45,503 nt of DNA from an uncultured Clostridia bacterium (lineage in GTDB: Bacteria; Bacillota; Clostridia; RUG12999), in contig CAMNSU010000013.1 of NCBI GenBank assembly GCA_946555455.1, positions 1 through 45,503 on the forward strand, given 5' to 3'. Of this stretch, positions 43,370 to 45,503 are shown piece by piece; position 1 is the stretch's first letter; each line of letters opens with the position of its first letter. The position numbers and the translations under genes were made by a program. Under the pieces are notes generated by a model, which ran no database searches, had not been told where the DNA came from, and saw nothing but the letters and a program-made list of their open reading frames with translations.

Positions 43370-43492
43370 ACCAGATAGTGGACGAAAATGCAAGATGCCT
43401 ATCAAAATCTCTTTGGGCTTCCTGTTCTACCGACAGGGGCATTTTCATTCACGGACGATAAGCCGCGGCAGGGCGGCAGAATGGAGGAAACC

Positions 43493-44836
43493 ATGAACAA
43501 TGCAATTTCAAAAGATTTCGGGTTTGGCGGACTGCTGCGGTTCACGTTCCCCACGATTATTATGATGATTTTTATGTCTCTATACACCATTGTAGACGGC
43601 TTTTTTGTCGCGCGGTTTGTCAGCACAGACGCGCTTTCCGCAGTGAATCTGACCTACCCGCTCGCTGGTCTCACCACGGCAATCGGCATTATGTTTGCCA
43701 CAGGCGGAAGCGCTGTCGTTTCACGGCAATTTGGCGAAGGAAAACCACAAGAGGCAAAACAAAATTTCACGCTAATCGTCTGCGCCGCAACCGCACTCGG
43801 ATTTATCATTACACTCCTGACACTGCTCTTTTTGGAACCCCTTGTCATTTTAATGGGCGCCAGCGGTGCTCTGATTCCGCTCTGTCAGGACTATTTATGG
43901 ATTTTGACAGTGTTTACCCCCGCTTCTGTACTGCAAATGCTGTTCCAAAGTTTTTTTGTCACGGCAGGAAAACCCGGCCTTGGTTTGGCGCTGACCATCG
44001 CTGCAGGCGTGGCAAACATGCTGCTGGACTATGTGTTTGTCGCCGCGCTTGGCTGGGGCGTTCAAGGCGCAGCATGGGCAACTGTTATCGGATTTTGTAT
44101 CCCTGCCTTGGGTGGAATCCTGTTCTTTTTTGGAAATCGGAAAGGCTTGTGTTTCACACTGCCCAAACTGCGTTGGCGCATACTCGGTGAAAGCTGTTTC
44201 AATGGTTCTTCTGAAATGGTCACCAACATCTCAACCAGCGTGACAACGTTTCTGTTTAATATCTTAATGATGCGTTACCTTGGGTCGGACGGCGTTGCTG
44301 CAATTACCGTTATTCTGTATTGCCAATTTTTGATGACTTCACTTTATTTAGGATTTTCTATGGGCGTTGCCCCTGTGATTGGGTTTCAGTACGGCAGTCA
44401 AAACAGAGCAGGATTACAGCGAATTTTCCGTATTTGTATGCTGTTTATTGCACTGTCCTCTGTGCTGATATTTGGTCTTGCACTGCTTTGCGCAAAACCG
44501 ATTGCCGTGCTTTTCGCTGCCAAGGATTCCGCTGTTTACCCCTTGATTACCCGCGGACTTGGGCTGTTCTCCATCGGATTTTTGTTTGCAGGCATTAATA
44601 TTTTTGCCTCCGCACTGTTTACAGCCCTGTCCAATGGTAAAATATCCGCGCTGCTTTCCTTTTCCAGAACTTTCGTCTTTATTTTGCTTGGACTTTGGCT
44701 GCTTCCGCTCTGGCTTCAAGTGGACGGCATCTGGCTTGCCAATCCTTTTGCCGAACTGGTAACAGTAGCTGTCAGCTTTTTCTGTATCTGCCGGCAAAAC
44801 AGATATTATGGATTATATGAAAGGAAAAACAGATAA
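43493..44836 (+). CDS. MATE-family multidrug/sodium exporter
   Basis: 447 residues from ATG 43493 with GGAGG 5 nt before; an earlier in-frame ATG lacks a good site. Twelve hydrophobic segments in two homologous halves; MATE signatures are IVDGFFVARFVSTDALSAVNLTYP and GGSAVVSRQFGEGKPQEA in the N-lobe, and GVAPVIGFQYGSQNRAGL in the C-lobe. MATE carriers expel cationic drugs or metabolites using Na+ or H+. Control by the divergent MerR-family gene points to multidrug-type induction. A stem-loop follows the stop by 33 nt. Confidence 0.92.
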   Translation: MNNAISKDFGFGGLLRFTFPTIIMMIFMSLYTIVDGFFVARFVSTDALSAVNLTYPLAGLTTAIGIMFATGGSAVVSRQFGEGKPQEAKQNFTLIVCAATALGFIITLLTLLFLEPLVILMGASGALIPLCQDYLWILTVFTPASVLQMLFQSFFVTAGKPGLGLALTIAAGVANMLLDYVFVAALGWGVQGAAWATVIGFCIPALGGILFFFGNRKGLCFTLPKLRWRILGESCFNGSSEMVTNISTSVTTFLFNILMMRYLGSDGVAAITVILYCQFLMTSLYLGFSMGVAPVIGFQYGSQNRAGLQRIFRICMLFIALSSVLIFGLALLCAKPIAVLFAAKDSAVYPLITRGLGLFSIGFLFAGINIFASALFTALSNGKISALLSFSRTFVFILLGLWLLPLWLQVDGIWLANPFAELVTVAVSFFCICRQNRYYGLYERKNR

Positions 44837-45191: not shown

Positions 45192-45268
45192 GCGAATCAC
45201 TCCTTTAAAATATTTTTTAAAAGAGAAAGTACCCAAAGATTTTTATCTTATTAAGTCTCCTATAGCCA

Positions 45269-45297
45269 TTGACTTATCCTACTTATTGTGATATACT
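45269..45297 (+). promoter_or_regulatory. Strong promoter on the plus strand
   Basis: TTGACT (45269-45274), 17-nt spacer ending in TGA, TATACT (45292-45297). It is near-consensus with an extended -10, and no open reading frame follows closely. Confidence 0.75.
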
Positions 45298-45303
45298 ATA
45301 AGT

Positions 45304-45382
45304 GCTACGTTATAGTTTATCTTAAGATAAACAATTTTAGCCATCGACTCAAAGATTTCTATCTTTGGGTCTTTTCTCTTTT
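45304..45382 (+). ncRNA. Candidate small RNA of about 79 nt
   Basis: Starts about 7 nt after TATACT and ends in a terminator: stem 45346-45356 with 45361-45371 (one G-T pair), loop TTCT, tail TTTTCTCTTTT. Inside lies a perfect 18-bp palindrome (45315-45332, GTTTATCTTAAGATAAAC) that would form a hairpin in RNA or an operator in DNA. No coding frame is visible. No match to a known RNA family is recognised. Confidence 0.5.
45315..45332. promoter_or_regulatory. Perfect 18-bp palindrome just after the promoter
   Basis: GTTTATCTTAAGATAAAC, centred about 20 bp downstream of the predicted start, a typical place for a repressor site. The regulator is unknown. Confidence 0.55.
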
Positions 45383-45503
45383 ATGAAGATATAATATCAT
45401 ATTTATTTTGATTTGTCAACAAAAATTTTACCAAATATTTCATTTTCTGTTTTTACTTGTTCTAATACTTCTAATATGAAATTATTTTTAAATAATCAGC
45501 TTA
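45383..45503. other. AT-rich end of the window without a gene
   Basis: Very AT-rich sequence after the candidate small RNA. No open frame with a ribosome binding site and no hairpin is seen before the window ends. Confidence 0.4.

Follow-up and report, generated by a model that had tools for sequence, protein, structure and literature searches.

A candidate antisense RNA within a long inverted repeat in the predicted leader of a DUF3892 gene

The window analysed here is the whole of a 45,503-bp contig (G000:C13) from a 3.1 Mb genome assembly of 181 contigs that is 97.6% complete, and because it spans the entire contig the locus of interest lies only 120 bp from the contig end. A MATE transporter gene converges there with a gene for a DUF3892 protein (P0001, Table 1), which by its sequence appears to be a soluble protein of 91 amino acids; comparison of P0001 with PDB and NCBIfam gave nothing useful and no defence-system model matched it. 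A continuation of the locus beyond the contig end was sought in the G000 assembly by way of the kinase gene adjacent to it in G001, the same-genus genome used for comparison, and was not found. On the minus strand the segment 44745-45010 is among the window's most stable 168-nt folds relative to GC, and takes in a hairpin 3′ of the MATE gene (GTCCAGCGCCTGA...TCAGGCGCTGGAC).

Table 1. Features at the DUF3892 end of the window
Feature	Coordinates	Strand	Remarks
MATE transporter gene	43388-44836	+	convergent with the DUF3892 gene
DUF3892 protein gene P0001, 91 aa	44916-45191	-	Pfam PF13031, 27 bits against a cut-off of 22.3
Predicted DUF3892 mRNA leader	45192-45384	-	two exclusive folds
Alternative hairpin hiding the Shine-Dalgarno sequence AAAGGAG (45206-45200)	45200-45225	-	predicted, 11 bp, -8.4 kcal/mol
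5′-side counterpart of the 3′ arm end UUUCUCUUUUA			UAAAAGAGAAA
Alternative 3′-arm hairpin, terminator-like	45225-45259	-	predicted, weak, -5.6 kcal/mol, interrupted U tract
Imperfect inverted repeat, 166 bp	45218-45383		arms 45218-45300 and 45301-45383
Predicted antisense promoter, TTGACT-17-TATACT	45269-45297	+	from sequence; extended -10 (TG)
-10 block of the antisense promoter			TATACTATA; identical in the G001 unit, where the -35 differs
Predicted non-coding antisense RNA, 79 nt	45304-45382	+	promoter and terminator at its ends, no ATG/GTG, homologous unit in a G001 phage contig
Palindrome, 18 bp, GTTTATCTTAAGATAAAC	45315-45332		stem GTTTATC/GATAAAC; first hairpin of the predicted antisense RNA
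Predicted intrinsic terminator	45346-45382	+	hairpin 45346-45371, then TTTTCTCTTTT
Predicted DUF3892 promoter, TTGACA-17-TATTAT	45391-45419	-	extended -10 (TG); predicted TSS ~45384

Upstream of the DUF3892 gene and on the strand opposite to it, the sequence-only reading had described a near-consensus promoter, a perfect 18-bp palindrome and a good terminator within a 79-nt non-coding unit, and all of these are indeed present: the promoter carries an extended TG, and the unit contains neither ATG nor GTG and a single, late TTG. No Rfam family matched the unit above its gathering score, the sub-threshold matches being of the chance kind.

The unit lies within an inverted repeat that had been noticed before at a smaller size; it extends over 166 bp and runs continuously through its centre. 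Its outer arms (45218-45249 and 45352-45383) are complementary at 26 of 32 positions, and the minus-strand leader over the repeat is predicted to form one hairpin of ~165 nt with an energy of -54 to -60 kcal/mol and a z of -6.8 to -7.6 in two runs. Compared without gaps in 83-nt arms the repeat is the most palindromic place in the window by a marginal difference (39 matches vs 38 for the runner-up), and several other window segments match or exceed the hairpin in GC-corrected energy extremeness. These sequence elements and their overlap are directly observed. The DUF3892 mRNA is predicted to start one base beyond the repeat, at the point where the antisense terminator also ends; with this start at ~45384, the whole of the 79-nt plus-strand RNA would be antisense to the leader. 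The earlier figure of 25 of 31 complementary bases between the two transcripts was thus too low, and from these predicted ends the match would take in all 79 nt.

Promoters, transcript ends and folds are predicted, and in silico folding gives the leader two alternative states. In the growing transcript two local 5′ hairpins form first, and the long-range hairpin follows after the 3′ arm has been made. In the free leader, folded into the long hairpin, AAAGGAG is unpaired with a probability of 0.56, a value that drops to 0.007 when the 5′ arm is blocked and to 0.01 when it is shuffled; covering the first 81 nt, our stand-in for a bound antisense RNA, or just the first 39 nt leaves it at ~0.01 or less. 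The site is hidden in the blocked leader because the end of the 3′ arm, UCUCUUUUAAA, pairs with UUUAAAGGAG. Shuffling the 11-nt arm end gave equal sequestration in 1.5% of trials, and each of the 19 other ribosome sites in the window is more exposed; on these modelled folds the complementarity to the Shine-Dalgarno sequence is a specific property of the end of the repeat. Shuffling the A/T spacer alone gave equal sequestration in 28%, which counts against reading the leader as a switch.

We propose, with a confidence that falls somewhat short of even, that a cis-encoded antisense RNA controls the DUF3892 gene via its mRNA leader. Minus-strand transcription from ~45384 would yield a leader that on its own folds into one long hairpin, in which the 5′ arm would restrain the 3′ arm, whose end UUUCUCUUUUA is the putative anti-Shine-Dalgarno sequence, and the ribosome site would be accessible because the 3′ arm is held down in this way. 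The 79-nt plus-strand RNA, made inside the repeat and a perfect complement of the leader's first ~81 nt, would occupy the 5′ arm, and the freed 3′ arm would then pair with AAAGGAG in the 11-bp hairpin and block translation. The weaker terminator-like hairpin may additionally stop transcription, and the duplex of sense and antisense RNA would be a substrate for RNase III. Expression, binding and the direction and size of the effect are what we infer. Regulation of the DUF3892 gene by base pairing had been one of two earlier proposals and has become the better supported, given the complete overlap and the switch predicted at the leader's ribosome site. Two promoters of at least 10/12 with the extended TG lie on opposite strands within the 312 bp from 45192 to 45503, a quality reached by two promoters in 1 of 1000 dinucleotide shuffles, and two such opposed strong promoters in so short a stretch would argue for antisense control. 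Against it, the full arrangement occurs in one sequence only, and the long hairpin (-54 kcal/mol) may close before an antisense RNA can compete.

Alternatively, the long hairpin might have a role only in the DUF3892 mRNA, which it would stabilise at the 5′ end or open to RNase III processing, with the plus-strand promoter weak or silent. Hairpins at the 5′ terminus protect Gram-positive mRNAs, and the very stable leader hairpin begins at the predicted 5′ end, as such a role would have it. However, a strong plus-strand promoter followed by a good terminator is left unexplained, as is the conservation of the unit in G001 without an adjacent DUF3892 gene, and we consider this account quite improbable.

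The conserved unit in question is the one true relative that blastn and a sequence model recovered, at G001:C11:41038-41140. It stands alone between convergent lysis and repressor-side genes on a 42.5 kb contig with integrase, primase, portal, major head, endolysin and repressor genes, separate from the contig that holds G001's DUF3892 gene. Shared with the window are TATACTATA-N10-TATAGTTTATC, the GTTTATC/GATAAAC stem, the terminator and the tail TTTTCTCTTTTA. All 10 pairs of the terminator stem are kept, two of them changed on both sides (C-G to U-A and A-U to G-C), and two further pairs are changed on one side. The first stem is kept as well, with a loop of 8 instead of 4 nt. The 18-bp palindrome had been labelled an operator, a label that is disfavoured because the phage copy keeps the half-sites and alters their spacing from 4 to 8 nt; in this comparison of two copies a repressor-dimer palindrome was rejected, and the change of loop would better fit an RNA hairpin. 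For antisense control, a conserved promoter-hairpin-terminator unit with two compensatory pair changes would be a point in favour, and its lying alone on a phage contig away from the DUF3892 gene a point against.

That solitary position between phage genes, together with the compensatory changes in the hairpin, would also suit an autonomous phage-born small RNA gene, acting in trans or on the phage, whose place in the DUF3892 leader is incidental. We think this improbable, as the window copy lies wholly inside the predicted leader and has its end in common with the DUF3892 start site, and a second similar or complementary site was not found in G000 or G001. The left arm of the window repeat, in its minus-strand reading, also resembles the G001 unit (arm-to-arm identity 83%, arm-to-G001-unit identity 86% of aligned positions), and on this resemblance both arms are probably old copies of a single unit, set in inverse orientation. 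Such a phage-born RNA unit may have been duplicated in inverted orientation into the leader of a host gene, giving an antisense RNA and a palindromic riboregulator at once, with the terminator tail UUUCUCUUUUA reused as anti-Shine-Dalgarno sequence, a history we regard as unlikely.

Possible, if on balance doubtful, is that an insertion put the 166-bp palindrome between the DUF3892 promoter and the ribosome site. It would then be a mobile or phage-derived element, either MITE-like or composed of two inverted copies of the phage unit, and the promoter, the hairpins and the Shine-Dalgarno pairing would be by-products. MITEs and IS630-type repeats are short palindromes with terminal inverted repeats and a TA target, and the window palindrome resembles them in its long terminal inverted repeat (TAAAAGAGAAA...TTTCTCTTTTA) and a possible TA duplication. 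However, the TA at both ends is indistinguishable from the repeat itself, so that target duplication is not demonstrable, and the window repeat differs from such elements in not being multicopy and in that no parent transposase was identified. An insertion is also consistent with the sole relative lying in a temperate phage contig and with each arm being about as near to the phage unit as to the other arm, whereas the phage copy is without a second arm. The comparison of insertion status called for by the sequence-only reading gave a weak signal in the same direction: with the repeat excised in silico, alignment of the flanks to the G001 leader scores slightly higher than is usual for shuffles, 15 of 300 of which do at least as well. 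That the contig ends 120 bp beyond the repeat belongs on this side too.

Copy number stands against an element. The search for further copies found a single locus in G000 and, across the genus, one half-unit in G001 and none in G002; no convincing relatives by E-value appeared in 391 class genomes and 398 phylum genomes (~790) or in IMG/VR, and exact patterns over 85,000 genomes gave chance matches only. Diverged copies were possibly missed by these collection scans because they used exact patterns. The idea of a small mobile repeat, the second of the earlier proposals, is weakened by this absence of dispersed copies. IMG/VR sequences related to the phage repressor and to the HNH-like gene were without the unit. 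Several candidates were discarded: palindrome-pattern matches in IMG/VR were marine phage and other chance matches in unrelated contexts; weak model matches in other genera (L066-L069, L017) were either unrelated sequence or ordinary terminators such as those that follow phage wall hydrolases; Enterococcus phage blastn matches covered the AT-rich minus-promoter segment only; and a candidate in G003 was an ordinary terminator.

Relatives of the DUF3892 gene itself were found by genome search and tblastn, pattern scans having given none. The same locus in G001 carries a DUF3892 gene 36% identical to that of the window, with a different leader that is without the repeat, and in G002 a truncated DUF3892 gene only, both of which count against antisense control. 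The plasmid relatives are a further point against it, since many of them, indeed most, lie within operons or directly behind other genes and are without such a leader. In G241:C82 (L074, ~1255-1380), whose DUF3892 protein is 59% identical to the window's, a near-consensus opposite-strand promoter (TTGACG-17-TATAAT) and a terminator-like hairpin lie upstream of the DUF3892 gene and suggest another short antisense-side RNA; the DUF3892 leader of the MATE-DUF3892 locus in G001 (L076, G001:C37) has an opposite-strand consensus promoter, TTGACA-17-TATAAT. Both opposite-strand promoters are suggestive only.

The plasmid contexts are of interest in their own right. On Enterococcus casseliflavus pEGM182-1 (L079, 1682-3267) PADLOC models identify a type VI retron pair (HTH_VI and RT_VI), with the DUF3892 gene right after it. 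The arrangement on an E. durans plasmid (L097) is similar, and DUF3892 may be a retron-associated gene on these plasmids. On Pediococcus and Lactiplantibacillus plasmids (L102, 1475-3523, and L096) genes for an HTH protein, a SecB-like chaperone and DUF3892 follow one another beside toxin-antitoxin pairs, possibly as a SecB-assisted or regulatory module.

For the replication genes of plasmids, control of a leader fold by antisense RNA is a classical mechanism. If it holds for the window, the mechanism would extend to a plasmid-borne protein family that is still uncharacterised and would offer a first handle on the regulation of DUF3892 proteins, and inverted duplication of an RNA gene could be a simple route to such a switch.

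Among known systems, bsrG/SR4 shows an antisense RNA altering the fold around a Shine-Dalgarno site (PMC6562991), as is proposed for the window, and differs in that the two RNAs pair at their 3′ ends and a small toxic peptide is made; P0001, by its sequence and its DUF3892 domain, is not a small hydrophobic toxin, and assignment to type I toxin-antitoxin systems was rejected. The closer logic is that of plasmid rep leaders. In pT181, whose 87-nt RNAI acts on the rep (repC) leader (PMC5703833), and in pIP501, whose 136-nt RNAIII acts at the repR attenuator (PMC4981023), the antisense RNA removes a pre-emptor pairing and a downstream stem-loop forms (PMC5703833, PMC4981023). The window leader is likewise predicted in silico to have mutually exclusive folds, a pre-emptor arm against a start-site stem-loop. 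A translational effect would be likelier here than termination because the U tract that goes with the hairpin at the Shine-Dalgarno site is poor; the 3′ arm hairpin, as a transcription terminator, is also weak. The target differs from these plasmids: the DUF3892 gene lies beside a MATE transporter gene, and since no rep gene is involved the window leader is not a member of the pT181/pSK41 group by target. In pSK41, from the RepA_N staphylococcal plasmids, an RNAI of ~83 nt is complementary to the rep leader ~100 nt upstream of the start, and, once bound, it is proposed to bring about a stem-loop where translation starts, which is also the outcome with pT181 RNAI (PMC5703833). The window differs in having a DUF3892 target on a chromosome-type contig and a leader that is one 166-nt palindrome. 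It resembles pSK41, in logic and with no claim of sequence relation, in its predicted start-site stem-loop and in a short counter-transcribed RNA that, judging from promoters, terminator and overlap, is complementary to an untranslated leader, and by analogy the precedent of pT181 and pSK41 would favour antisense control of the DUF3892 gene.
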